Shown in pieces: positions 1,041 to 34,274 of a stretch of 64,000 nucleotides of DNA. Every line of letters begins with the position of its first letter. Within the stretch, counting starts at the first letter, position 1. This DNA comes from Terrabacter sp. Root85 (GTDB lineage: Bacteria > Actinomycetota > Actinomycetes > Actinomycetales > Dermatophilaceae), in NCBI RefSeq assembly GCF_001429185.1, contig NZ_LMIW01000009.1, forward strand, positions 124,001 through 188,000, in the 5' to 3' direction. A program made the position numbers and the translations under genes. The notes beneath the pieces are model-generated. The model was given only the letters and a program-made list of their open reading frames with translations. It did not search any database and was not told the DNA's origin.

Positions 1041-1814
1041 GTGGGCCTGAGCTTCGGCTCCGTGCTGCGGCGCGGGGTCCTTGCCGGCGTGTCCGCAGGT
1101 CTCGCGGCCGCCGTCGTCATCTGGCTCGTCGTCGAGCCGGTCATCCGTCGGGCCCTCGCCATCGAGGACATGCGCTCGATGCACGGCGGCCAGTCGGCGC
1201 CCGCCGGTCTGCCCACCCACGGTGGCGACGAGCCGCTCGTGTCGCGGGCCGCCCAGGTCGTCGGTGGCGCCGTGACGGCGGTCCTCGTCGGGGTCGCCGT
1301 CGGGGTCGTCTTCGCCGTCGTCTTCGCCAGGATGCGTGAGCGGCTCCCCGGTCGGGGCGACTTCGGCCGCTCGATGGTGCTCGCCACCATCGGCTTCGCA
1401 GCCGTGAGTCTCCTTCCGGCACTGAAGATCCCGTCGAACCCGCCGGCAGTCGGCGATCCGGGGACAGTCGGGCAGCGCACGCTGGTCTATGCCGTCGTCC
1501 TCCTCCTCGGGGTCGCGATCGCCCTGCTCGTGCCGGTGCTCGACCAGCGCCTCGTGGCGCGAGGGACGGTGCCGGCCACGCGGTGGGCCATCGACGTCGT
1601 CGCGACCGTGGTGCTCGTCGTGCTCGTGCTGGTGCTCGTGCCGGGCTCGCCCGATGCTGTGCCGGCCGACGTGCCGGCGGCGCTGCTCTGGGACTTCCGG
1701 CTCGCCTCCCTGGCACAGCTCGCCACGATGTGGCTCACGCTGGGTCTCGTCTTCGGGCTGCTCCTCGAACGGGTCGCCGCGCCCAAGCGGGCTCTCGAGC
1801 CCGTGGCGGCGTGA
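1041..1814 (+). CDS. cbtA: CbtA family cobalt transporter
   Basis: This 257-residue membrane protein has about five hydrophobic helices (near residues 10-32, 73-96, 115-133, 151-172 and 185-203) plus a C-terminal one near 222-243. The layout and the MHGGQ histidine motif after helix 1 match CbtA (PF09490), the partner of CbtB in cobalamin-repressed cobalt import. The GTG start at 1041 follows the cbtB stop by 1 nt. The C-terminus overlaps the next gene by 4 nt (GTGA), so the three genes probably form one riboswitch-controlled operon. Substrate specificity is inferred from the family and from the riboswitch. Confidence 0.88.
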   Translation: MGLSFGSVLRRGVLAGVSAGLAAAVVIWLVVEPVIRRALAIEDMRSMHGGQSAPAGLPTHGGDEPLVSRAAQVVGGAVTAVLVGVAVGVVFAVVFARMRERLPGRGDFGRSMVLATIGFAAVSLLPALKIPSNPPAVGDPGTVGQRTLVYAVVLLLGVAIALLVPVLDQRLVARGTVPATRWAIDVVATVVLVVLVLVLVPGSPDAVPADVPAALLWDFRLASLAQLATMWLTLGLVFGLLLERVAAPKRALEPVAA

Positions 1815-2218
1815 CGGCACACGAGAACGCCTCTGCCGACAGCGATTCCGCGCGCACGTGCATCGTCCGCGTGTGCCGTGACTGCTGCTGCGGCACGGAA
1901 CGCAAGCACCCCGGGGTCGACCACGACGGGCTCCTGGCCCGCCTCGAGGTCGGCACCCGGGGGAGCGCCCGCGTGCTGCGGAGCGCGTGCCTGCTCGCCT
2001 GCGACGAGTCGAACGTCGTCGTCGTGACGCCGTCGGTGGTCGGTCGCCGCGCCGGCGGTCGGCCCGTGTGGGTGCGCGCCGTGCTCGACGACGAGACGGT
2101 CGACGCGGTCACCGGGTGGGTCGCGCTCGGCGGCCCGGGTGTCGCGGACGTGCCGGCGCCGCTCGCGCAGCAGGTGTTCGCCCCGAGCGGGCTGTCGCTG
2201 ACGTGGACGGCGGTCTGA
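1811..2218 (+). CDS. (2Fe-2S) ferredoxin-domain protein of the cbt operon
   Basis: This 135-residue soluble protein starts at GTG 1811, overlapping the cbtA stop. Its N-terminal cysteine cluster (CIVRVCRDCCCGTERKHPG, about residues 16-34) is followed about 30 residues later by SACLLACDESNVVVV. That is the four-cysteine pattern of thioredoxin-fold [2Fe-2S] ferredoxins. Translational coupling to cbtA suggests a role in cobalamin metabolism, for example electron supply for cobalt or corrinoid reduction, or metal sensing. The C-terminal part (VWVRAVLDDETVDAVTGWV) looks like the conserved tail of (2Fe-2S) domain proteins found in actinobacterial cob clusters. The exact partner is unknown. Confidence 0.75.
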   Translation: MTAHENASADSDSARTCIVRVCRDCCCGTERKHPGVDHDGLLARLEVGTRGSARVLRSACLLACDESNVVVVTPSVVGRRAGGRPVWVRAVLDDETVDAVTGWVALGGPGVADVPAPLAQQVFAPSGLSLTWTAV

Positions 2219-2227
2219 GGCGCCGCA

Positions 2228-2518
2228 TCAGGAGTCGGCGCGGACGTCCAGCCCCACCTCGACGGTGTCACCCTCCTCGACGTCCTCGGCGCGACGGACG
2301 GCGACCTTGAGGGGGACGACGTAGCCGCCGTCCTTGGGCCACAACGACGTCGTCCACCGGGTGCGCCCGATGCGTGCGGTGACCGGGATCATGCCCCAGC
2401 CGTAGCTGACGTGCGCGACGTCGTGCAGCGCCTGCGACTCGTCCTCGGGCACGCTGACGAAGTAGTAGGGCGACGGACCCCGCCACTCCCAGACCTCGGC
2501 GCTGAACTCCAGCTCCAT
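2228..2518 (-). CDS. DUF1905 domain protein
   Basis: This 96-residue protein matches the DUF1905 beta-barrel family. It begins MELEFSAEVWEWRG and then has GPSPYYFVSVPEDES, YGWGMIPVTARIG, TTSLWPKDGGYVVPLKVAVR and a closing GDTVEVGL. I chose ATG at 2516-2518 because the conserved domain begins directly at that Met. Upstream in-frame residues are Arg-rich and would overlap the divergent gene's promoter. It stands alone on the minus strand, convergent with the ferredoxin gene and 9 nt from it. No biochemical function is established; DUF1905 is often found beside or fused to YdeI/OmpD-type domains. Confidence 0.82.
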   Translation of the reverse strand: MELEFSAEVWEWRGPSPYYFVSVPEDESQALHDVAHVSYGWGMIPVTARIGRTRWTTSLWPKDGGYVVPLKVAVRRAEDVEEGDTVEVGLDVRADS

Positions 2519-2578
2519 GCCCACAGGATGGCACCGATGTCGCTCCGCTCGACGTGGTCTGCGACGGCCCGACGTGGC

Positions 2579-2584
2579 TAGCAT
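2579..2584 (+). promoter_or_regulatory. Candidate -10 element (TAGCAT) for the DUF1801 gene
   Basis: TAGCAT ends 10 nt before the ATG at 2595, the spacing of leaderless or near-leaderless actinobacterial transcripts. No strong ribosome-binding site is seen in front of that ATG. Confidence 0.4.
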
Positions 2585-2594
2585 CGTGACCGAG

Positions 2595-3050
2595 ATGGAC
2601 ACTCCTCAGCAGGTCGAGGCCTACCTCGCCGGTCAACCCGAGCCCAAGCAGACCGAGCTCCGAGAGCTGCACGCGCGGATGCTCGCGGAGTTTCCCGCAT
2701 GCCGGCTGTGGTTCATCGACGGCTCGGACGAGCACGGCAGGGTCGTGGCCAACCCCAACATCGGCTATGGCGTCCGCACCATCACCTATGCCGACGGGTC
2801 GTCACGCGAGTTCTACCGCATCGGCCTCAGCGCGAACACGACGGGCATCTCCGTGTACGTGCTCGGCCTGGCGGACAAGACCTACCTCGCGCGCACCTAC
2901 GCAGACTCGATCGGCAAGGCCAGCGTCACGGGCTACTGCATCAAGTTCAGGCGCCTCTCGGCCGTCGACGCCGATGCGCTCCAGGCGGCGATCCGCGACG
3001 GCATGACCGGCGACCAGAGCTGCGGACCGTTGTCCACGGAGCACAGGTAG
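2595..3050 (+). CDS. DUF1801 (YdhG/Fjo21-like) domain protein
   Basis: This 151-residue protein resembles DUF1801 proteins. The N-terminal helix pair is MDTPQQVEAYLAGQPEPKQTELRELHARML. It is followed by the mixed alpha-beta domain with VRTITYADGSSREFYRIGLS, GISVYVLG and a C-terminal SVTGYCIKFRRLSAVDADAL that holds the conserved lysine/arginine 'KF(R/K)' patch. The fold is related to frataxin-like domains and is of unknown function. An alternative GTG start lies at 2586. It is divergent from DUF1905 and probably a single-gene transcript. Confidence 0.75.
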   Translation: MDTPQQVEAYLAGQPEPKQTELRELHARMLAEFPACRLWFIDGSDEHGRVVANPNIGYGVRTITYADGSSREFYRIGLSANTTGISVYVLGLADKTYLARTYADSIGKASVTGYCIKFRRLSAVDADALQAAIRDGMTGDQSCGPLSTEHR

Positions 3051-3104
3051 CGGCGTGGTCGACCAAGCCGTCGGGTCAACACTGTCCACGGAGGAGGTGG
3101 GGGC

Positions 3105-4115
3105 GTGTCGATGTTCGTTCCCGGGGCGGAGCTGAGCCGGCGGTTCTACGACGAGGTCGTGCAGCCCGTCTTGAGCGCCACCTTTCCCGGCGTGCCGCAC
3201 TCTGCTGCGCTGCTCGGCCGTGGGTCGGAGGTGCTCGGCTTCGATGATGAGATGTCGACGGACCACGACTGGAAGCCCCGTGCTCTGATCTTTCTTGCCG
3301 AGGAGGACGAGCGGCGCCTCGGTGCCGAGGTGCGAGCGGCGCTGCAGCGCGACCTTCCGGCGACCTTCGCCGGTCGTCCGACCGGCCATGCGGTCCACAC
3401 CGTGCGCGGCTATCTCCGGCAACAGCTGGAGCTGGACATCGACCACGACATCGAGCCGCGCGACTGGCTGACCCTGCCGGAGCACGGGTTACGTGCGTTC
3501 ACCTCGGGCGTCGTCTTCCACGACGAGGTGGACCTGCAGACGGCCCGCGACCGTCTGGCCCACTATCCCCATGACGTCTGGCTCTACCTGCTGATCGCCG
3601 GGTGGTGGCGCGTGCACCCGGAGATGAACCTGGTGGGCAGAGCGGGAGCTGCGGGCGACGAGCTGGGCTCCTCGCTGATCGGGTCGCGCCTGGTCGGCGA
3701 CCTGATGCGGCTCGCGTTCCTGATGGAACGGCAGTACGCGCCGTACTCGAAATGGTTCGGGACGGCCTTCTCACGTCTGGAGTGTGGCTCGGAGCTGACT
3801 CCGGTCCTGTGGAACGTAGGCCGCGCGGCAACGTGGCCGGACCGCGAAGCGGCTCTCATGACGGCGTACGAGCGTCTGACCGCGATGCACAACGCGCTCG
3901 GTCTGACGGCTCCGGTCACGACGGAGGTCGTGCAGTTGTGGGACCGACCCTTCAAGGTCGCGTGGGCGGGCATCCCGGACCTGCTCCTGCCTCTGATCCA
4001 GGACCCAGCGGTCGTGAGCATTGCGCAGAGATGGCCGGTCGGACCCGTGGACCAGTTCCGCGAGCTGATCTGGGCACCGCAGAATCGACACCTGCTCCTG
4101 CGACTCTTCGACTAG
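3105..4115 (+). CDS. DUF4037 domain protein (nucleotidyltransferase-like)
   Basis: This 336-residue protein begins with a nucleotidyltransferase-like core: LLGRGSEVLGFDDEMSTDHDW near residues 38-58 has the G-(S)-x-D-x-D pattern. The DUF4037 helical half follows, with LAHYPHDVWLYLL, LERQYAPYSKWFGTAF and LWDRPFKV. GGAGGTGGG at 3091-3099 precedes the GTG at 3105; an ATG at 3111 is also possible. The gene contains a TTA leucine codon (3489-3491) and somewhat more A/T-ending codons than its neighbours, which hints at transfer. Substrate is unknown. Its position inside the cobalamin island looks incidental. Confidence 0.78.
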   Translation: MSMFVPGAELSRRFYDEVVQPVLSATFPGVPHSAALLGRGSEVLGFDDEMSTDHDWKPRALIFLAEEDERRLGAEVRAALQRDLPATFAGRPTGHAVHTVRGYLRQQLELDIDHDIEPRDWLTLPEHGLRAFTSGVVFHDEVDLQTARDRLAHYPHDVWLYLLIAGWWRVHPEMNLVGRAGAAGDELGSSLIGSRLVGDLMRLAFLMERQYAPYSKWFGTAFSRLECGSELTPVLWNVGRAATWPDREAALMTAYERLTAMHNALGLTAPVTTEVVQLWDRPFKVAWAGIPDLLLPLIQDPAVVSIAQRWPVGPVDQFRELIWAPQNRHLLLRLFD

Positions 4116-4178
4116 GGGGAGCCCACGGAGTGTTCGCACGCGTCTCCGGGCCGTGGTCAGAGCGGTCGCCCGCGAGCG

Positions 4179-5708
4179 TCAGTGGACGTAGCGGGGCGTC
4201 CACACCTGGCCGACGCCGGTGACGCGGGTGCCGGACGCGCAGACGATGACGAGGCACTTCATGTCGATCGTCGCCGGGTCGAGGTCGGCGAGGGTCGTCA
4301 CCGTGAGGGACTCCTCGGCTCGGCCGACGTCGCGACCCACGACGACGACGGTGGCTGGGTCGCGTTCCTCGAGGAAGACCTCGCGGGCGCGGGCCACCTG
4401 CTCGGTCCGGCTGCGTGAGGCGGGGTTGTAGAGAGCGACGACGAGGTCGGCCGACGCGGCGGCCCGCAGGCGCCTCTCGATGACGTGCCACGGCTTGAGC
4501 CGGTCGGAGAGCGACATGATGGCGAAGTCGCCGCCCAGCGGTGCGCCGGCGCGAGCCGCCACGGCCTGGGCCGCAGTGACTCCGGGCAGCACTCGCACCG
4601 GCACGTCGGTGTAGCCGTGCATCTCGGCCGCCTCGAAGACCGCCGATGCCATGCCGAAGACTCCGGCGTCGCCACCGGAGACGACCGCGACCCGCTCGCC
4701 CTTGCGGGCCAGCTCGAGGGCGTCCCGGGCGCGGTCCACCTCGACCGTGTTGCCGGAGGCGTGACGGGTGAGGCCCTCGCGCTGCGGGACCCGGTTGACG
4801 TAGGGCGCGTAGCCGACGACGTGACCGACGTCGGCGAGCGCGGCCGACGCCTCCGGGGTGAGCCAGCGGTCGGGTCCGGGGCCGAGGCCGATGACGACGA
4901 CCTCGCCCTGGACGTCGTCCTCCGGACCTTGTTGCGGGACAGCCGGATCGCTCGTGCCTGAGGATGCCGCACGCCCGGCCGCGTCAGCCCGCAGGTCGCG
5001 ACCGGGAACGACGACCATCGACATGTACGGCACGGTCGAGGCGTCGACCTCGGCGACGGGGAGCACCCGCTCGGCATCCGAGCTGGCCCGCTCGACGTAG
5101 CGCGCCTCGTCGAGCCGTCCGGCCTGTCGCAGGGCCTCGCGGACGTTCTCGAAGGTGCGGCCGAGCTTCATCACGACGGCAGCCTCGGTGTCGGCGAGCC
5201 GGCGCGCGAGCTCCGGCACCGGCAGCGTCCCGGGCAGGATCGTCAGCACGTCCTCGTGTCGGCAGAGGCCGGTGGCGACGGCGGCCGCCGACCCGCTGAC
5301 CGACGTGACACCCGGGACGACCGCGGTGTCGTAGCGGTCGGCGAGACGGTCGTGGAGGTACATGTAGGTGCCGTAGAAGAGCGGGTCCCCCTCGGCGAGG
5401 ACGACGACGTTGCGGCCCGAGTCCAGATGTGCGGCAAGGCGATCGGCCGACTCGTCGTAGAAGTCGGCCATGAGGCCGTGGTAGCCGAGCGGGTGGTCCG
5501 TCGCGCCGGTGGTGACGGGGTAGACGAGCAGCTCCTCGACGACTCCGTCACGGAAGTACGAGGCGGCGATGCGTCGGGCGATCGAGTCGCCCCGCGGCCC
5601 GCTGTGGAAGGCGACGACGTCGGCCTCACCGATGAGCCGCGCGGCCTTGACGGTGACGAGCTCGGGGTCACCCGGCCCGACGCCGACGCCGCGGAGCCAG
5701 CCGGTCAC
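4179..5708 (-). CDS. cobIJ: CobI-CobJ fusion: precorrin-2 C20-methyltransferase / precorrin-3B C17-methyltransferase
   Basis: This 509-residue protein carries two complete SAM-dependent tetrapyrrole methylase domains. Residues ~1-245 are CobI (GVGVGPGDPELVTVKAARLI, LAEGDPLFYGTYMYL, VVPGVTSVSGSAAA). Residues ~268-509 are CobJ (VVIGLGPGPDRWLTPEAS, VSGGDAGVFGMASAVFEA, VLPGVTAAQAVAARAGAPLG). They are joined by a variable linker of ~20 residues rich in Ser/Asp/Gln. The enzyme would methylate precorrin-2 at C20 and carry out the C17 methylation with ring contraction of precorrin-3B, so the products of neighbouring CobG and CobH connect directly to it. The start is GTG 5706-5708, sharing GTGA with the cobH stop. 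Such fusions are known in actinobacteria. Confidence 0.95.
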   Translation of the reverse strand: MTGWLRGVGVGPGDPELVTVKAARLIGEADVVAFHSGPRGDSIARRIAASYFRDGVVEELLVYPVTTGATDHPLGYHGLMADFYDESADRLAAHLDSGRNVVVLAEGDPLFYGTYMYLHDRLADRYDTAVVPGVTSVSGSAAAVATGLCRHEDVLTILPGTLPVPELARRLADTEAAVVMKLGRTFENVREALRQAGRLDEARYVERASSDAERVLPVAEVDASTVPYMSMVVVPGRDLRADAAGRAASSGTSDPAVPQQGPEDDVQGEVVVIGLGPGPDRWLTPEASAALADVGHVVGYAPYVNRVPQREGLTRHASGNTVEVDRARDALELARKGERVAVVSGGDAGVFGMASAVFEAAEMHGYTDVPVRVLPGVTAAQAVAARAGAPLGGDFAIMSLSDRLKPWHVIERRLRAAASADLVVALYNPASRSRTEQVARAREVFLEERDPATVVVVGRDVGRAEESLTVTTLADLDPATIDMKCLVIVCASGTRVTGVGQVWTPRYVH

Positions 5709-6373
5709 AGCTCCTCCTCGCGGGCCAGGGCGTTGACGGCAGAGGCCGCGAGGGCTGAGCCACCGCGCCGACCGTGCACCACGAGCCACGGGATGTCGAA
5801 GGGGTTGTCGGCCAGGGCGAGCTTCGACTCCGCGGAGCCGATGAAGCCGACGGGGATGCCGATGATGGCGGCCGGGCGCGGGCCCCCGTCGGCGATCGTC
5901 TCGAGGAGGTGGAAGAGCGCCGTGGGCGCGTTGCCGATCGCGACCACGGCGCCGTCGACCCGGTCGCCCCAGAGCGAGACGGCCGCCGCGGATCGCGTCG
6001 TGCCCCAGGCCCGTGCGAGAGCCGGAACCCGCTCGTCGCGCAGCGTGCAGACGACCTCGTTGTCGCGGGGGAGCCGGGCCCGGGTGATGCCGGAGGCGAT
6101 CATGTGCGCATCGGTGAGGATGGGCGCACCGGACCGCAACGCGGTCCGCGCGGCCGCGACGAGCCGGGGGTGCACGGCGATGTGCTCGGTGAGGTCGACG
6201 TCGCCGCTGGCGTGCACCATGCGGACGGCCACGACTCGGGCGTCCTCGGGAAGGTGGTCGAGCCGGGCCTCCGTCCGGATCGTCGCGAACGACCGGCGAT
6301 AGATCTCCGCCCCGTCCGTGACGTAGTCGTAGCGGCGCGTCGGCGCCTGCCGTGTCTCGGTGGTCACGTCCAT
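5705..6373 (-). CDS. cobH: Precorrin-8X methylmutase CobH
   Basis: This 222-residue enzyme moves the methyl group from C11 to C12 of precorrin-8X, giving hydrogenobyrinic acid. Family features are YDYVTDGAEIYRRSFATIR near the N-terminus, the conserved catalytic-type segment ARVVAVRMVHASGDVDL (His near residue 53), ILTDAHMIASGI, AIGNAPTALFHLLE and IGIPVGFIGSAESK. The ATG at 6371-6373 lies inside the 3' end of cobG (10-nt overlap), and its stop overlaps the cobIJ start. This indicates strict translational coupling in cobG-cobH-cobIJ. Confidence 0.95.
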   Translation of the reverse strand: MDVTTETRQAPTRRYDYVTDGAEIYRRSFATIRTEARLDHLPEDARVVAVRMVHASGDVDLTEHIAVHPRLVAAARTALRSGAPILTDAHMIASGITRARLPRDNEVVCTLRDERVPALARAWGTTRSAAAVSLWGDRVDGAVVAIGNAPTALFHLLETIADGGPRPAAIIGIPVGFIGSAESKLALADNPFDIPWLVVHGRRGGSALAASAVNALAREEEL

Positions 6374-7506
6374 GAGGACTCCTGCTCGGCGATGGTGGAC
6401 AAGGCTTGCTCGGCGGACCGTGGGGCCACCACGTCGACGTATGCCGTCGCGGGCGTTCCGCACCGACGCTCGCATCCGCTGACGTGCACGGGGAGGTGGC
6501 CGCCCGGCAGGACCGGGGCGAGGTCGCGGGCCAGGGCTCGGGTGTCGAGAGCGGACCGGGCACAGCCCGGGAGGCCGGTGCAGGCGTGCAGCCGGGTCCA
6601 GGGTGAGCCGGCGTGGGTCACCAGGCCCGCTGCCTCGAGCTCGGGCAGTGCTGCGGCGGCCTTCTCGATGACGAGCGAGCGCCACGGAGTCACGAGCACG
6701 CGGTCCGTGACCCCGGCGAGCGCGGCAACGTGGTCGGGTCGGAGCAGGCCGAGCGGCACCGCCACGACGGCGTGGTCGCCGACGGCGCCGAGCGGGCGCT
6801 CCGGCTGACGTGGCAGGTCGAGCTCGGCCGTCGGCTCGGGTCCGAGCGGCACCGCGAGCTCGCTGACGTGCCAGACGGATTCGTCGCCGCTGGCCGCTTG
6901 CACGAACTGACGGGCGAGGGCGACCAGCCGCGGAACTGCGGCCGCCAGCGGCACCTCCCAGCCGCGGTCGATGCCGCCAGCCAGCACGACGCAGCGAGCG
7001 GGACCGGTCGCGAACAGGCCGAGGTCGAAGGACTCGCCCACGACGTCGCCACGCCCGTCGTCGAGGACGAGGAGGAAGCGGCCGCCGAGGCGGGAGAGGT
7101 CGGGATCGGTGCGGAGCGCGGCGTCGAGGGCGCGGGTCACGGGACGCAGGTCGCAGTGCCCGGCGCCGTCGAGACCGGAGAGCGGCGAGGCGACGATGTT
7201 GCGGACGAGCTCGTGGGTCGCCGAGGGGACGAGTCCCGTCGCCCGGATCGCGTCGCGGATCCGCGGCGTCAGCGGGTCGGGGAGCCCCCGCAGCTGCAGG
7301 GCGCCCCGAGACGTCAGTTGGATCGCCGGATCCTGCTGTCCGGCAATGACATCCATGAGATCGGACAGGACCTCGATGCGCACCGGCTGGCCGGCAGGAC
7401 GGAGCCGCACGATCGAGCCGTCGACCGCGACGAAGGGTCGGCTGACACCGGGACAGGCATCGCCTGCCCGGCGCTCTCGGCTCGACGGGGCGGTCACGCG
7501 GCACAT
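6364..7506 (-). CDS. cobG: Precorrin-3B synthase CobG (oxygen-dependent)
   Basis: This 380-residue protein has the sulfite/nitrite reductase ferredoxin-like half-domain near its start (IQLTSRGALQLRGLP). It has an RNIVASPLSGLD segment typical of the siroheme-reductase fold, and the cysteine cluster HACTGLPGCARSALDTRAL ... HVSGCERRCGTP for an Fe-S cluster. CobG hydroxylates precorrin-3A at C20 with O2, so its presence marks the aerobic (late cobalt insertion) route and fits with cobN nearby. The ATG at 7504-7506 is the farthest upstream start. A GTG three codons later is also possible. No riboswitch core was seen in the 54-nt gap to the next gene. Confidence 0.92.
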   Translation of the reverse strand: MCRVTAPSSRERRAGDACPGVSRPFVAVDGSIVRLRPAGQPVRIEVLSDLMDVIAGQQDPAIQLTSRGALQLRGLPDPLTPRIRDAIRATGLVPSATHELVRNIVASPLSGLDGAGHCDLRPVTRALDAALRTDPDLSRLGGRFLLVLDDGRGDVVGESFDLGLFATGPARCVVLAGGIDRGWEVPLAAAVPRLVALARQFVQAASGDESVWHVSELAVPLGPEPTAELDLPRQPERPLGAVGDHAVVAVPLGLLRPDHVAALAGVTDRVLVTPWRSLVIEKAAAALPELEAAGLVTHAGSPWTRLHACTGLPGCARSALDTRALARDLAPVLPGGHLPVHVSGCERRCGTPATAYVDVVAPRSAEQALSTIAEQESSWT

Positions 7507-28440: not shown

Positions 28441-28879
28441 GCCCTGCACCCTGACTCCCCTGAGCTCACGTCGCGCGGTCCCGACGTCCGCGCACGTTCG
28501 AGAAGTATGCGCTGCCGGGAGGGAGCGCGCGAGCGCGACGCGCGGCGACGGCATACGCGGGCCGTGCCCGTCCGAGGTGCGGCCCTGCGCGCGGGCCGGG
28601 GAGGGGGCGCCGGTGCTGCCAGGCCCGGCGCCCCACGGACGGGACCGCCCCCTGGAAGTCCCGAACCCCTGTGCAGGTCACCGGGCCTGCTGCCCCTCCG
28701 CAGCGCCCCGTTGCAGCCCGGTGACCGTTCCCCCTGACCACCCAGAGTCGTCCCGTCCCGGCTTGATACGTCTCCGGACGAAAAAGTTCGGAAGGCCCGA
28801 TGTATCAGGAAAACGAGTACGCACACTCAGTCGGGTGTAAGGGTCTTTCCAACACCATCCGCCCCTCAGGAGGTTGTCG
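28441..28879. other. 439-nt intergenic region upstream of the subtilisin-sigma-CHAT operon
   Basis: The left two thirds are very GC-rich with no coding signal I trust. The right third is clearly more AT-rich and is the likely promoter region. TTGATAC (28763-28769) and GTATCA (28802-28807) form an inverted repeat, and inside it CCGGAC (28774-28779) pairs imperfectly with GTTCGG (28786-28791). AGGAGG at 28868-28873 is the ribosome-binding site. An operon-encoded ECF sigma factor would be expected to bind here, but I could not assign -35/-10 boxes. Confidence 0.5.
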
Positions 28880-30454
28880 ATGTCAGAGTCGGGTCCCGAC
28901 GCCCCACAGGGAGCGACCGGCGAGAACGCGGCCGGCGGCTCCCGCCGCCCCGAACGTCCGCCCGTCCGCGCCCTCGACCCGGCCACGGCGATGCGCCTGA
29001 CCGACGGTCGCCCGCCGCTTCCCGCCCTCTACCTCTCCGACCGCCTCCTCGTGCGCACTCCGTCGGGTGGGGGCAGGCCGCGAGGACTCGAGGACCTGCG
29101 CACGGCGCTGGGCAAGCTCGAGCTCGACTTCACCGTGACGCCCCGGCCCGACGGTGGGCCGCGCGACCTCGACCAGCCCACTTGGGGCACGAGCATCACG
29201 CTCCGGCCGACCCGCTCGATCGACCCTGTCGACGCGTGGAGCGTGCTCCAGCGGCTGCGCCAGTCCGGCGAGCCCGTCGCCGAGCAGCTGAGCCTCGAGC
29301 ACGTCCTGCGGCCGGCAGACGGCTACTGGGGCGGCGTGGGCGGCTACTGGGGCGGCGTCGGGGGCTACTGGGGTGGCGTGGGCGGCTACTGGGGTGGCGT
29401 CGGGGGTTACTGGGGTGGCGTCGGCGGGTCCGCGCTGCAGGAGTACTCCGTGCCCGGGCGGGGCGGCCGTATGCCGGTGGCCCTGGCCCTGCCCGACCCG
29501 CGGCTGCGGGCACGTCCCGTCGACCGCAACCCCGTCGTCGTCGTGCCCGACACGGCGGTCGCGGTGCACCCCTGGTTCAAGGACGGCGAGGGGGTCGTGC
29601 GGCTCGAGCTCAAGGACGGCCGGCTCGTGCCGGTGAAGACGCCGAAGCCGGTCGACCCACCGATCTCCGTGCCGGCCCCGAGCGAGCCCGTCGGGCTGCT
29701 CCAGGGGCACGCGACGTTCATCGCCGGCCTCGTGCGCCAAGGCTGCCCGGAGGCGACGATCCTCTCCATCCCTGTCATGGGTGACGACGGCGTCGTCGAC
29801 GAGAGCGTCATGCTCGACGTCCTCCAGGCGCTGCTCGACCGGCACGTCCACGGGCAGGAGCACGACGACGCGTCCGAGGTGGTCGACGTCCTCTCGCTCT
29901 CCCTCGGCTACTACGCCGAGGACCGCAGCTACACGTCCGGGCCCGTCGCCGACCTGCTCGACCGCTTCGGCGAGCACGGCGTCCTCGTCGTGGCCGGAGT
30001 CGGCAACGACGGCACGAACGCGCCGTTCGTCCCTGCGGCGCTCGCGGCGGCACCCCCGCAGCGCGTCACCGCGAAGTCGGTCCCGCCGCTGGCCAGCGTC
30101 GGCGCGACGAACCCCGACGGGGTGACCGTCGCGCTCTTCTCCAACAACCTCACGGTCGTCAGCGCCGTGCGGTCCGGCGTCTCCGTCGTCAGCACCTTGC
30201 CGCTCACCAACGGCATGGGCCAGCCGTCGTCGCAGGTCTCGGCCGACGGCACGGTGCGCTGCACGGTCGACCCCGACGACTACACCGGTGGCTTCGGCGT
30301 CTGGAGCGGCACGTCCTTCTCCACCCCGGTCTTCGCGGCAGAGCTCGCGGCGGCCCTCATCGACGAGGGCGGCCTGGCCGAGGTCTCGTCGCCCGTCATG
30401 CGCAAGCGGGCCATCCGTGCCCTGCGCACCTGCATCGGAAGGGCGCGATCATGA
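28880..30454 (+). CDS. Cytoplasmic subtilisin-like (S8) serine protease with GYWGGVG heptad repeats
   Basis: This 524-residue protein begins with an Ala/Pro/Arg-rich tail and then an ~100-residue N-domain (LRTALGKLELDFTVTPRPDG ... VDAWSVLQRLRQSGEP). Five perfect GYWGGVG heptads follow (residues 148-182), and a subtilase catalytic domain lies at ~210-510. All catalytic positions are present: Asp224 in VVPDTAVAVH, His277 in LQGHATFIAGL, Asn376 in AGVGNDGTN and Ser479 in SGTSFSTPVFAAEL. There is no signal peptide, which is unusual for S8 enzymes and implies action inside the cell. ATG 28880 follows AGGAGG by 6 nt. The stop overlaps the sigma-factor start (ATGA). The substrate is unknown; partners in the operon or the protein itself are candidates. 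Confidence 0.9.
   Translation: MSESGPDAPQGATGENAAGGSRRPERPPVRALDPATAMRLTDGRPPLPALYLSDRLLVRTPSGGGRPRGLEDLRTALGKLELDFTVTPRPDGGPRDLDQPTWGTSITLRPTRSIDPVDAWSVLQRLRQSGEPVAEQLSLEHVLRPADGYWGGVGGYWGGVGGYWGGVGGYWGGVGGYWGGVGGSALQEYSVPGRGGRMPVALALPDPRLRARPVDRNPVVVVPDTAVAVHPWFKDGEGVVRLELKDGRLVPVKTPKPVDPPISVPAPSEPVGLLQGHATFIAGLVRQGCPEATILSIPVMGDDGVVDESVMLDVLQALLDRHVHGQEHDDASEVVDVLSLSLGYYAEDRSYTSGPVADLLDRFGEHGVLVVAGVGNDGTNAPFVPAALAAAPPQRVTAKSVPPLASVGATNPDGVTVALFSNNLTVVSAVRSGVSVVSTLPLTNGMGQPSSQVSADGTVRCTVDPDDYTGGFGVWSGTSFSTPVFAAELAAALIDEGGLAEVSSPVMRKRAIRALRTCIGRARS
29321..29425 (+). repeat. Five tandem 21-bp repeats encoding GYWGGVG
   Basis: GGCTACTGGGGCGGCGTGGGC-type units are repeated five times in frame without indels. 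They differ only at synonymous third positions (GGC/GGT/GGG, GTG/GTC). The encoded heptads are identical. Confidence 0.95.
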
Positions 30455-31032
30455 CGCCGACCCCCACCGCTCCCGACGGACTCGGGACCCTCGCGGGCAA
30501 GGCGTTCGCCGCCTACCGCGCGGGGGAGCGCGAGCGGCTCTCCGAGCTCGTCGACCTCGTGACCCCGGTCCTCTGGAACGCGGCGCGTTCCCAGGGCGGC
30601 GCGCCTGCGACGTGCGAGGACGCCATCCAGACGGCGTTCCTCCAGCTCGTCGACCGGGCCGACTCGATCAACGAGCCGGCTGCGGTGCTCGGTTGGCTCG
30701 TCGTCGTCGTCAAGCGCGAGGTCTGGCGGCTCGCCCGCGGGGCCCGGCGCGAGTTCGGTGTCGAGGAGGTGCCGGAGGCCCCGGCGCAGCAGCTCGACCC
30801 CGAGGCGCAGTCGATCCTCTCCGAGCGCCAGCGCGTGCTGTGGAAGCACGTCTCGACCCTCTCACCGCGGTGCCAGGAGCTGCTCCGGGTCATCGCCTTC
30901 GCCGACCGCCCTGACTACGCCGCCATCGCGGAGTCGCTGGGGATGCCGGTCGGCAGCATCGGCCCGACCCGTGGCCGCTGCCTCCAGAAGCTGAGGACGA
31001 CCCTCGGCACCGACCCCGGATGGGCGGTCTGA
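30451..31032 (+). CDS. ECF-type RNA polymerase sigma factor
   Basis: This 193-residue sigma-70 family protein has region 2 at ~residues 30-95 (LVDLVTPVLWNAARSQ, CEDAIQTAFLQLVDRADSINEPAAVLGWLVVVVKREVWRLAR). Region 4 is at ~130-185 (LSPRCQELLRVIAFADRPDYAAIAESLGMPVGSIGPTRGRCLQKLRTTL), with the helix-turn-helix ending G-P-T-R-G-R. No sigma-1.1 or region 3 is present, as in ECF factors. ATG 30451 overlaps the subtilase stop by 4 nt. The next gene starts 2 nt after its stop. It presumably transcribes this operon and possibly other genes when released by an operon-encoded regulator (inference). Confidence 0.92.
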   Translation: MTPTPTAPDGLGTLAGKAFAAYRAGERERLSELVDLVTPVLWNAARSQGGAPATCEDAIQTAFLQLVDRADSINEPAAVLGWLVVVVKREVWRLARGARREFGVEEVPEAPAQQLDPEAQSILSERQRVLWKHVSTLSPRCQELLRVIAFADRPDYAAIAESLGMPVGSIGPTRGRCLQKLRTTLGTDPGWAV

Positions 31033-31033
31033 C

Positions 31034-31540
31034 ATGACATCTCACACTGACGCCATCGATGCCCGCGACATCGCCAACCTCCACCACGTGCGTGACCTCT
31101 TCGGCCACGCCGACCCCGTCCCGAGCGACCTCGCCGAGCGCATCAAGTTCGCGATCACGGTCCACGCCCTGCACGCCGAGGTCGCCGAGCTCATGGACTC
31201 GGCCCTGCTGACGACGCGGGGCGCCGACGCCAAGGTCGAGCCGACACCGACCGACTCGGTGACCTTCACGGCCGCCTCGGTGAGCCTCATGGTCTCGTCC
31301 GGTCCCGCGGACTCCGACGGCACGGACGACGACGACGACCGTGTGCGCGTCGACGGCTGGGTCACGACGCCGGGCGCGCAGATCGAGGCCGTGACGACCG
31401 AAGGCAGTTCCATGGTGATTTCGGATGCGAACGGGCGCTTCGTTCTGGATGATCTACCCCATGGGCCGGTGCACTTCGTCGTCACCGACCCTGGCAACGA
31501 GGACATGCGACCGGTCATCACCCCCACCATCCAGATCTGA
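31034..31540 (+). CDS. Small acidic protein with helical N-domain and beta-sandwich C-domain (putative sigma regulator or protease substrate)
   Basis: This 168-residue protein has an N-terminal helical part (residues ~10-60, LHHVRDLFGHADPVPSDLAERIKFAITVHALHAEVAEL). A linker with a run of Asp follows (GTDDDDDRV, ~95-105), then a carboxypeptidase-regulatory-like/prealbumin-like beta domain (VDGWVTTPGAQIEAVTTEG, DANGRFVLDDLPHGPVHFVV). There is no signal peptide or membrane helix. It begins 1 nt after the sigma-factor stop. Its place between an ECF sigma factor and a CHAT protease makes it the best candidate in the operon for an anti-sigma factor or a cleavable partner of the sigma factor. That is inference; I recognise no named family for the N-domain. 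Confidence 0.7.
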   Translation: MTSHTDAIDARDIANLHHVRDLFGHADPVPSDLAERIKFAITVHALHAEVAELMDSALLTTRGADAKVEPTPTDSVTFTAASVSLMVSSGPADSDGTDDDDDRVRVDGWVTTPGAQIEAVTTEGSSMVISDANGRFVLDDLPHGPVHFVVTDPGNEDMRPVITPTIQI

Positions 31541-31646
31541 CGATCCGGCCCGACGTGGTGACCGGCCCTGAGCGAAAGGCCGGGCGGGACCCATCGATCT
31601 GCTCGAGAGTGCACGCACCCTGCGCGAGCAGGGTGCCGCGGACAAC

Positions 31647-34274
31647 ATGGCCGGCAGGCCGGTCGACGCGGCGCGCTCGCTGACGGCGGCCCTCGACGAG
31701 ATCGAGCGCCTGGCGGGCGCCGCGCCCTCCCGGGATCGGCTCGAGCTGCGCTGCAAGACCCTCATCACGCTCGCCCTGACGGAGTTCATGCTGTCCGGCG
31801 TCGAGGCCGCCCTGGCTCGGCTCTCCGAGGCCGAGGTGCTCGTCGACGAGCTCGGCGACGAGGCGCTCCGAGCCCGGCTCGACTATCAGCGCGCCAACAT
31901 CCACGGCCGCGTCGGTGACCTCGCCTCGGCATGGGACGGGCTCGAGGGGGCAGTGCGCCGCCTCGACGCCTTCACCGAGCGCGAGCAGTGCTCGGTGCAC
32001 CTAAGCCGCGGGATGCTCGCCTTCGAGCTGCTGCGGCCGCAGGAGGCGCTCGAGTCCTTCGCCGAGGCGGCGCGCCTCGCGCACGACCTCGGCGGGGTGG
32101 CCCAGGAGTTCATGGCCCGCCACAACGAGGGGTATGCCGCCTACCTCCTCGGTGACATCCCGCGGTCCCTCGCCGGCATGGCGCTCGCCGAGGAGCTGGA
32201 GTCCGACGTCTTCACGGGACCAGCGCGCCTCGACCGTGCCCAGGTGCTGCTCGAGGCGGGGCTCGTCAAGGAGGCGGTCGAGGCGCTGCACGGTGGCCTC
32301 GAGGCTCTCGAGGGCGACGGCCACGACCAGATGCGGGCCGAGTTCGAGCTGGCACTCGCGCGCGCCCACCGGCTGCTCGGCCACCTCGACCTGGCGGCCT
32401 CGGCCGCCGCGTCGGCTCGCGAGACGTATGCCCGCATCGGGGCGACCGCGTGGGCTGCCAAGGCGATGCTCGTCGGCCTGCTCGTCGAGCTGGACCGCCA
32501 GCGGCGCACCCGCCGTGGTCGGGAGCGCGACGGCCACGGCGGCGTCACCGAGCACCAGGACGGGAGCCGCCAGACCGGGGAGCGCCAGGGAGAGCTCCGT
32601 GAGGCCGACCTCCGTGAGGCCGACCTCGTCCGGCGCGTCGTCGGTGTCGGGGACGCCACCGTGGCCCTCGCGGCGGCGGCGACCGCCGACGAGCTCGCGG
32701 AGACGGCGACCGAGCTGGGCGACTCCGAGCTCGCCGACAGTGCTCGGGTCGTCGCCGCGCAGGCACTGCTGCTCGCCGGTGACCCGGCCGGAGCCAACAC
32801 GAGGCTGCTCGGCCTCGAGCGGGTCTCCACCGGGTCGCTCTCCGACGAGCTCGATGCCGCCGTGGTCACCGCGATGACGCTCGTCGCCACCGGCGACCTC
32901 GCGCCGGCCCGACGCATCCTCGTTCGGGCCTCCCGTCGCCTCGCGGCGGGTCAGGAGGGGAGCGCGAGCCTCGACCTGCGCACCGCCCGCGCGGTCCACG
33001 GAGCCCGACTCTCCGAGCTCGACCTCGAGCTCGCCGTCCCCCGGGGCAGCGGCGCCGTGCTCGAGGCCCTCGAGCGGTGGCGCAGCGCCACCGACCGGCT
33101 GCCGTCGCTCGGGCGACCCGACGACGAGCAGCTCGCCCAGCTCACCGAGCAGCTGCGCGCCGTCCGGGGGCACCTGCGCGGAGAGGGCGACCCGGAGCAG
33201 GCGCGCGAGCTGCACGACCACGCCTCGCGCCTCGAGCGGCAGATCCGAGACCGCGACTGGGCCCTGAGCCGCAGCGGTGGGGCCTCGCGCGCCGTGCCGG
33301 TGCGGGTCCGTGAGGCGCGCGAGCACCTCGGCCGGGCCGACCGCGACCTCGTGTGGTTCTTCCGGCACCGCGGCCGCATCGGTGCGGTCGGGGTCGTCGG
33401 TGGTCGCGCGACGATGCGTGACCTCATGCCGGCCGACCGGGCCGCAGAGCTCGCCCAACGCATCCGCGTCGACCTGCGGGCCGCGGCCACGCACCACCTG
33501 GGCCCGCTCGCCGGCGCCGTCTGGTCGTCGTTGCGTTCGAGCGCGACCGAGCTCGACGACGGCCTGCTGCGGCCGTGGCGCACCGACCGTGGCCTCGTCG
33601 TCGTGACGTGCCCCGAGCTGTCGGCCCTCCCGTGGGCGCTCCTGCCGTCGATGACCGGACGGCCGTTCACGGTGGCGCTGTCGCTGACATCGTTCACCCG
33701 CCGCGCCGCACCAGCGGGGGACGCTCCTCGTCGGGGGCCCGTCCACGTCAGCGTCGGCCCATCCGTGCCTCGCGCGTCGGGCGAGGGCCGCACGATCGTC
33801 GGCACGTGGGGCGAGGTCGCCCACCTCGCCGAGCCGTCCCGCCGGGCCGACCTCGTCGGGGCACTCGCCCGCCCGGGTGTCGTCCACGTCGCCGCGCACG
33901 GCACCCACCAGGTGGAGTCGCCGCTCTTCTCCTCGCTCGTGCTCCACGACGGGCCCGTCTTCGCTCACGAGCTGCAGCCCACCGGCGTGCGCGCCGACCA
34001 CGTCGTGCTCTCGGCGTGCGAGGTCGGGCTCACCTCGCCCCGCCCCGGGCACGAGTCCCTCGGTCTGGCGCTCTCACTCCTCTCGCTCGGCGCGCGCTCG
34101 GTCGTCGCGGCGGTCTCGCCCGTGCCCGACGACGTCGCCGCGACGACGATGACGCGCCACCACGAGCTGCTGGCCGCCGGCCTCCCGAGCGACGAGGCCC
34201 TGGCCCGCTCGGTCGCGGAGACCGACGACGTCGCCGCCGCCTTCCTCAACCTCGGCGGCCAGCACCGCCCCTGA
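31647..34274 (+). CDS. TPR-CHAT protein: caspase-like cysteine protease with tetratricopeptide repeats
   Basis: This 875-residue protein has an N-terminal array of about ten TPR-like helix pairs (residues ~1-480, e.g. AALARLSEAEVLVDELGDEALRARLDYQRANIHG and LRPQEALESFAEAARLAHDLGGVAQEFMARHNEGYAAYLLGD). A helical linker follows, then a CHAT domain at ~540-875. The caspase-type dyad is His751 in VVHVAAHGTHQVESPLF and Cys791 in HVVLSACEVGLT. ATG 31647 is the first canonical start, but helix-forming sequence of the first TPR continues in frame back to 31593. True initiation may therefore be at ATC 31593 or CTG 31599, after GGGCGGGA. It is the last gene of the operon, and TPRs would sense a protein or ligand that switches on proteolysis (family knowledge). 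Confidence 0.88.
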   Translation: MAGRPVDAARSLTAALDEIERLAGAAPSRDRLELRCKTLITLALTEFMLSGVEAALARLSEAEVLVDELGDEALRARLDYQRANIHGRVGDLASAWDGLEGAVRRLDAFTEREQCSVHLSRGMLAFELLRPQEALESFAEAARLAHDLGGVAQEFMARHNEGYAAYLLGDIPRSLAGMALAEELESDVFTGPARLDRAQVLLEAGLVKEAVEALHGGLEALEGDGHDQMRAEFELALARAHRLLGHLDLAASAAASARETYARIGATAWAAKAMLVGLLVELDRQRRTRRGRERDGHGGVTEHQDGSRQTGERQGELREADLREADLVRRVVGVGDATVALAAAATADELAETATELGDSELADSARVVAAQALLLAGDPAGANTRLLGLERVSTGSLSDELDAAVVTAMTLVATGDLAPARRILVRASRRLAAGQEGSASLDLRTARAVHGARLSELDLELAVPRGSGAVLEALERWRSATDRLPSLGRPDDEQLAQLTEQLRAVRGHLRGEGDPEQARELHDHASRLERQIRDRDWALSRSGGASRAVPVRVREAREHLGRADRDLVWFFRHRGRIGAVGVVGGRATMRDLMPADRAAELAQRIRVDLRAAATHHLGPLAGAVWSSLRSSATELDDGLLRPWRTDRGLVVVTCPELSALPWALLPSMTGRPFTVALSLTSFTRRAAPAGDAPRRGPVHVSVGPSVPRASGEGRTIVGTWGEVAHLAEPSRRADLVGALARPGVVHVAAHGTHQVESPLFSSLVLHDGPVFAHELQPTGVRADHVVLSACEVGLTSPRPGHESLGLALSLLSLGARSVVAAVSPVPDDVAATTMTRHHELLAAGLPSDEALARSVAETDDVAAAFLNLGGQHRP

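Follow-up and report, generated by a model that had tools for sequence, protein, structure and literature searches.

A lineage-specific tandem peptide array in the subtilisin of an ECF54-like operon of Terrabacter covaries with the TPR region of the neighbouring CHAT protease

A stretch of 64,000 nucleotides of Terrabacter sp. Root85 (contig NZ_LMIW01000009.1, positions 124,001 to 188,000; the whole stretch is called the window below) carries an operon encoding an S8 subtilisin, an extracytoplasmic function (ECF) sigma factor (SIG), a small protein (SMALL) and a protein that combines a TPR region with a caspase-like CHAT protease domain (TPR-CHAT). The subtilisin contains five tandem copies of the peptide GYWGGVG, related operons carry arrays of other peptides at the same site, and the peptide unit covaries with the TPR region of TPR-CHAT. 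By its context the operon fits the ECF54 type, and the four-gene set as such is already in print; what is new and surprising is that the subtilisin bears an array, that this array covaries with the TPR region, and that arrays also occur on another protease fold. No description of such arrays was found in the open literature by titles and abstract openings, a search that did not cover subscription papers, two ECF54 source papers among them. On the comparisons presented here, the chances seem evenly balanced that the two proteases of this ECF54-type operon are tied to one sigma factor by the array, acting as a lineage-specific recognition tag that is read by the TPR region of TPR-CHAT. The array has the look of a private password shared by the two proteases.

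The array is located at positions 29321..29425 of the window on the + strand, as are all other features of the operon, and makes up residues 148-182 of the subtilisin (28880..30454). In an AlphaFold2 model of this protein, made with 79 aligned sequences and having a pLDDT of 84, the array is predicted to be disordered. It separates a prodomain (residues 28-145, 28961..29314) with the predicted order beta-alpha-beta-beta-alpha-beta, which we presume to be I9-like (the Pfam I9 model gave no match), from the catalytic domain (residues 193-520, 29456..30439), which holds the catalytic D, H, N and S and is matched by Pfam Peptidase_S8 (E 2.1e-10). The top PDB matches of the model in Foldseek were mostly unautoprocessed pro-subtilisins, with about 470-550 alignment columns and 12-16 % identity; proteases of ribosomally synthesized and post-translationally modified peptides, such as PatA, ranked lower. 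Pro-subtilisins cleave themselves at the junction of prodomain and catalytic domain. Since the model places the array between these two domains and best matches pro-subtilisins, the array would occupy the presumed self-cleavage junction. Tk-subtilisin, subtilisin E and PatA share the prodomain and the catalytic fold with the window protein, and we know of no tandem array at the junction in any of them. The GYWGGV pattern was seen nowhere else in the window genome than in the five subtilisin copies, by which a partner protein sharing the motif in its own genome is ruled out.

Orthologous operons were gathered as 140 loci of Actinomycetota: 80 from named genomes, which are the best 80 of at least 311 by subtilisin similarity in a scan with an S8 alignment, and 60 further loci chosen by small-protein matches, with weak matches and short contigs excluded. 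Some genomes are present in both sets or twice, and the 140 loci do not equal 140 species. The array was found at the fixed site in 84 of 97 evaluable subtilisins (some genomes again counting twice) and in 46 of 52 in the second set. The 89 nonredundant operons used below had to contain all four genes, a CHAT open reading frame (ORF) of more than 700 amino acids and a detected array; the double-operon loci L096, L105, L186 and L187 were left out, as was any operon whose S8 catalytic domain lay within 3 % of that of another operon. These 89 operons contain 64 different units, or 62 up to rotation, mostly six residues long (66/89; range 5-10) and present in 2 to 12.7 copies (median 4.8). All copies within an array are identical in 84 of the 89 operons, and an aromatic residue is part of the unit in 80. 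Among 2064 codon pairs in adjacent copies, 780 synonymous but only 5 nonsynonymous differences were counted; as arrays were detected by amino-acid identity, the synonymous count holds only where an array had been detected. Because over a third of the codon pairs differ, selection on the peptide is indicated, rather than recent DNA duplication alone. At the codon level, the peptide is under purifying selection within any one gene, and the unit changes fast between lineages. Exact repeats of at least three copies are present in 112 of 134 S8 ORFs and in none of the 135 SIG, 142 SMALL and 139 CHAT ORFs. No array was seen in the loci with SIG and/or SMALL that lack an S8 or CHAT match (L041, L042, L188, L189, L190). 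A pseudo-substrate in SMALL, SIG or CHAT was also considered and rejected: an operon's own unit scored no better against these proteins than a swapped unit.

Distances between units were set against those of seven protein regions in a first set of 58 operons and a second set of 31 operons that are not near-identical to those of the first; the TPR region was taken as residues 1-520 of TPR-CHAT (31647..33206). Given all other regions, unit distance was associated in both sets with the S8 catalytic domain (0.31 in the first, 0.41 in the second) and with the TPR region (0.20 and 0.30, respectively), each of the four values being reached in 0 of 100 permutations. In 44 sister pairs, rho was 0.58 for the TPR region and 0.54 for the S8 catalytic domain vs 0.16 for the CHAT domain. 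With the CHAT domain of TPR-CHAT held constant, the association of the TPR region was 0.71-0.77 over four ways of pairing, with 0 of 2000 restricted permutations. An example is provided by two Cellulosimicrobium loci (L093 and L108) with the units PYTQGL and PYGQPH, respectively: these differ by 4 % in the control regions, by 12 % in the CHAT domain and by 30 % in the TPR region. A partial-correlation network fell into two parts, one with the unit, the S8 catalytic domain and the TPR region, the other with the CHAT domain, the small protein and the sigma factor, and these parts are joined by the TPR-CHAT protein. The CHAT domain was coupled to the N-terminal part of the small protein (SMALLn, 0.26) and to the sigma factor (0.24). 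The network would match a relay from S8 via the array to TPR-CHAT and on to the small protein and sigma factor; part of the pattern could stem from slow vertical descent of the second group. It had been proposed in the original prediction that S8 acts on the small protein as a second protease. Covariation lends this no support, as the coupling of S8 was -0.05 to SMALLn and a weak 0.12 to the C-terminal part of the small protein; S8 couples to the array and the TPR region instead.

Arrays of this kind are not confined to subtilisins. The S8 gene is missing in seven operons, six of which come from one genus and one from another, and in all seven, PFTE or QPFT repeats are found in the product of an adjacent ORF (566-670 residues) that is transcribed divergently. 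Between the copies in these arrays, 2-11 synonymous codon differences were found. Three of the carrier ORFs were scanned with Pfam and all three matched Trypsin_2, at E-values of 1.2e-4 to 2.5e-3 that are too weak to reach the cut-off; the array is located C-terminal to the Trypsin_2 domain. The TPR regions of the carrier operons are nearest to those that go with the units PLTDPH, HPFTQS and PYTQPF, and in some cases with SPMING, GSPATE and PYGQPH. The nearest relatives of their sigma factors form a mixed list that includes operons with GWGDGI and GYGQGV, and their SMALL proteins and CHAT domains are also near those of PYTQPF- and PLTDPH-bearing operons. One short linear motif looks to have been placed on two unrelated protease folds.

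All four genes are present in 122 of the 140 loci; seven lack S8, four lack CHAT, two have S8 and CHAT only, and five have other subsets. A gene was scored as present if its profile matched anywhere in the locus, and the counts include L076 with a partial CHAT ORF and L083, a Microbacterium contig on which CHAT is split over two ORFs (3216-5545). In two of the four loci that lack CHAT the sequence is interrupted, by masking in L067 and by a contig end in L068. The 80 loci from named genomes span Intrasporangiaceae, Microbacterium, Nocardioides, Actinosynnema and Salsipaludibacter. A small-protein search of 58 relatives gave 25 matches, and 17 of 20 wider stretches contained all four genes; in evenly drawn samples of 396 genomes each, the small-protein profile matched 27 genomes for the phylum and 85 for the order, and it was among these matches that the 60 further loci were chosen. 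This conservation of the four genes is far beyond chance. Four close genes on one strand had been predicted in the window, and their ATGA overlap and 1-nucleotide gap were confirmed; all 89 nonredundant operons are same-strand as well. The gene set is thereby conserved outside the strain; the predicted order S8-SIG-SMALL-CHAT is seen in 39 of these operons, and the other 50 have the order SIG-SMALL-S8-CHAT.

According to a 2022 review, proteolytic control without an anti-sigma factor has been proposed for ECF54 sigma factors on the grounds that genes for carboxypeptidase, subtilase and CHAT proteins are a conserved part of their genomic context; SFT86700.1 of Geodermatophilus amargosae is the ECF54 model (PMC8999054, available text). 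We take the carboxypeptidase of the review to be the small protein, whose best Pfam match is CarboxypepD_reg at a sub-threshold E-value of 1.4e-05, and the 122 complete loci thereby have the carboxypeptidase-like, subtilase and CHAT genes of ECF54. Also in accordance with ECF54, the sigma factor of the window has regions 2 and 4 only. In the available text of the review, the array, its link to the TPR region, the trypsin-like carrier and the promoter motif described below are unmentioned for ECF54 (PMC8999054); neither the GYWGGVG array nor the promoter motif had been part of the original prediction.

The sigma factor (193 amino acids, 30451..31032), whose assignment to ECF54 is by context only, overlaps the S8 gene by ATGA. 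It was matched above cut-off by Pfam Sigma70_r2 (E 2.7e-07) and NCBIfam sigma70-ECF (E 6.3e-18), and by Sigma70_r4 below threshold. The small-protein gene (31034..31540) begins 1 nucleotide past the sigma stop codon. Its product is predicted by AlphaFold2 to consist of two long helices followed by a beta sandwich (pLDDT 88, pTM 0.61), a model that had no match in the PDB at E 0.001 or better; the best PDB match of the small-protein profile was at E 0.051. From the gene neighbourhood it is plausible that the small protein binds the sigma factor; searches of the PDB with the model and the profile did not support it as an anti-sigma factor by fold or profile. The TPR-CHAT gene (31647-34274) encodes a CHAT domain (33543..34211; Pfam E 4.7e-26). 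TPR repeats are sub-threshold in the window protein, while Pfam TPR models matched 8 of 10 orthologs scanned. The catalytic residues predicted for S8 (D224, H277, N376, S479) and CHAT (H751, C791) are indeed at these positions, and each is kept in 89/89 operons. None of the four operon proteins has a hydrophobic N-terminus, which agrees, by hydropathy only, with the predicted lack of signal peptides.

An ECF-type promoter motif, TGTATCA-N18-CTC, precedes the operon at 28801..28828. In a dyad scan ahead of the first gene, GTATC and CTCC were found 17 nucleotides apart in 43 of 88 regions vs at most 9 in shuffles. GTATCA-N15..18-CTC is present in 69 of 89 upstream regions vs a shuffle mean of 0.2, with N16 in 56 of the 69; it precedes 45 of 50 sigma-first and 24 of 39 S8-first operons, and 19 of the 89 regions have a match on the other strand as well. 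Of the seven loci without S8, five have the motif upstream of the sigma gene, of the gene for the trypsin-like protein or of both. The window genome contains four TGTATCA-N15..18-CTC sites vs one for a reversed-pattern control. One is that of the operon and another lies 72 nucleotides ahead of a gene for an 1150-amino-acid DUF7362/DUF7379/DUF7363-CHAT protein (L194:4450-7899, - strand, on G000:C1). Of eight genomes of the genus, its own included, seven have a looser form of the motif ahead of this gene, and the encoded protein may be a second target of the sigma factor. No common second target was seen in other genera among 20 selected sites followed in 9 genomes, searched against the four profiles and one CHAT protein; one of these sites is followed by a SIG-like gene and another has a SMALL-like ORF next to it. 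Upstream of the operon, TGATAC (28764-28769) forms an inverted repeat with GTATCA (28802-28807), and this TGATAC is invariant in nine aligned upstream regions from the genus and near relatives. A further CHAT protein of the window genome is encoded at G000:C13:265511-266332 (-).

Some genomes depart from the single four-gene set. In L096 and L105 (the same genomes as L186 and L187), from Salsipaludibacter and a metagenome-assembled genome of Nitriliruptorales, both deep-branching actinobacteria, two S8 genes with different arrays (HPMYDG/HPLYDG vs GGPFTS) and two CHAT genes occur with one sigma gene. TPR identity is 0.60-0.61 in matching pairs vs 0.38-0.42 between the two kinds. S8 and CHAT occur with no sigma factor or small protein nearby in L079, where PHVAF repeats are irregular, and in L099, which has SNPVEN. 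The window genome itself has a second ECF54-like locus (L191, G000:C1:1088000-1098500, at 1808-6908), with SIG, SMALL and S8 on the minus strand and CHAT on the plus strand; another such locus is L195 in G004.

How the operon could work may be pictured as follows. Triggering of S8 would expose or cut the array, which would then bind the groove of the TPR region. The CHAT protease would be activated by this binding, in that short peptides are freed or several TPR-CHAT molecules gather on one array. The active CHAT domain might then cut or remove the small protein, or act on the sigma factor itself, and thereby free the latter; this weakest step is proposed because of the gene order and the coupling among CHAT domain, small protein and sigma factor. 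On account of the promoter motif, the freed sigma factor is expected to transcribe its own operon and, in the genus of the window, the gene of the second large CHAT protein. The mechanism is a supported hypothesis at the step between S8 and TPR-CHAT and is weak at the small-protein step. Somewhat less probable, and put forward tentatively from the sequence comparisons, is a general intracellular peptide-code relay: a zymogen array at the self-cleavage junction would provide copies of one peptide, or a multivalent tag, recognised only by its own TPR-CHAT, after which the caspase-like protease would free an ECF sigma factor, the code word being specific for each lineage and portable to a trypsin-like fold.

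Several observations weigh against the array as a tag read by the TPR region. Two more regions pass in the second set of operons, namely the CHAT domain (0.26) and the prodomain (0.19), and SMALLn passes weakly (0.07, 0/60 permutations) when both sets are pooled. With equal column numbers and fewer controls, the TPR region (0.28) is not separated from the CHAT domain (0.25), and a segment around the CHAT catalytic His (residues 721-760) scores 0.38, near the best TPR segment (0.43). In the sister pairs, the prodomain (0.39) and the sigma factor (0.36, although sigma is itself part of the control distance) correlate too. The signal of the S8 catalytic domain given the TPR region falls to 0.07-0.31. 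The tests on distance matrices use no tree, and the sister pairs were formed greedily from nearest neighbours. Common descent may explain the P-[FYL]-T word shared by the trypsin-carrier operons. The array was undetected by the criterion used in 13 of 97 and 6 of 52 subtilisins, some of which have degenerate repeats and others none, and the 438-amino-acid S8 of the second locus in the window genome is without a tandem array. Conversely, L095 (8497-11218) has an S8 with array, a sigma factor and a small protein and no CHAT gene nearby.

The array might instead be a mere multi-site autoprocessing linker, in which identical cut sites ease release of the prodomain, the unit follows the active-site specificity of S8 and TPR-CHAT is no reader. 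Its position between prodomain and catalytic domain, the covariation of the unit with the latter and the frequent aromatic residue, which suits subtilisin specificity, speak for such a linker. We nevertheless consider it rather unlikely: the TPR region covaries with the unit as strongly, even given the CHAT domain, while the S8 signal drops given the TPR region, and on the trypsin-like carrier the array is C-terminal and no prodomain linker. A bait for foreign proteases, for example those of phages, has also been considered, the cutting of which would signal invasion and start a defence, with an arms race driving the fast change. The diversity of units at a fixed site would suit a bait, PADLOC gave weak matches to IetS and BovA, and caspase-type proteases with ECF sigma factors have been predicted in bacterial conflict systems (PMC8195603, available text). 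As an arms race predicts no covariation with the TPR region, and identical copies better fit one steady reader, this explanation is judged very improbable. The predicted conflict systems do resemble the operon in their caspase domain, TPR protein and ECF sigma neighbours, and activation by an autopeptidase was proposed for them; they differ in having the adaptors EACC2, DUF1822 and TRADD-N, and subtilisin-borne arrays are unmentioned in the text available (PMC8195603).

Two further explanations do without a message between the proteases. According to the ECF54 model as stated in the review (PMC8999054, available text), neighbouring proteases degrade or process the sigma factor or the small protein. 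The constant gene neighbourhood and the coupling of the CHAT domain with small protein and sigma factor are in line with this; the conservation of the array, its many dialects and the link to the TPR region are left unexplained by it. The model is compatible with the tag, and that it would by itself account for the operon seems to us to have a small chance. An equally small chance is given to a logic as in Craspase of type III-E CRISPR (Csx29, Csx30 and CASP-sigma), which had been put forward in the original prediction: CHAT would cleave the small protein as Csx29 cleaves Csx30, S8 would be a second protease on the same substrate, and the array would be incidental. Here too a TPR-CHAT protease is found near an ECF-type sigma factor and a putative regulator, and Csx30 sets a precedent in binding and inhibiting its sigma factor (PMC10028731, available text); the CHAT couplings given above also suit this logic. 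The small protein, however, showed no detectable likeness to a known or solved anti-sigma factor in profile and fold searches, and the coupling of S8 to it is absent or weak. To Csx29 itself the CHAT protein is only remotely similar, with 26.1 bits vs a cut-off of 300 and the best solved chain at E 0.0093, and an array-bearing second protease is a feature of the present operon. In agreement with the predicted lack of CRISPR, the window genome has no RAMP or Cas1 family match. Of the protease-to-sigma logic in general, the conserved set, the intact catalytic residues and the ECF-type promoter motif make a circuit credible, although the association is not new, being that of ECF54 (PMC8999054, available text).

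For a tag read by a TPR region, precedents are available. The TPR protein RapJ reads the 5-residue peptide PhrC (PMC3601965), and tandem copies of such peptides occur in tandem Phr pheromones (PMC11343458). In the available text of these papers, Rap-Phr and related RRNPP(A) systems use short linear peptides, sometimes in tandem, which are released proteolytically and read by TPR proteins (PMC11343458, PMC3601965). The present operon differs in that the peptide lies inside a protease and the TPR protein itself carries a CHAT protease; in addition, the N-terminus of S8 is, by hydropathy only, not hydrophobic, unlike that of the secreted propeptides of RRNPP/RRNPPA systems, which have a signal peptide.

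In conclusion, the array provides a concrete link for the ECF54 operon, the mechanism of which was so far only proposed in the available text of the review (PMC8999054). It comes with many natural pairs of peptide and presumed TPR reader, the specificity of which is open to swapping, measuring and predicting. Should the TPR region indeed read the tag, peptide-gated proteases would become available as an orthogonal set, and pro-subtilisin self-processing, peptide-sensing TPR proteins and caspase-like proteases would be united in one bacterial circuit.

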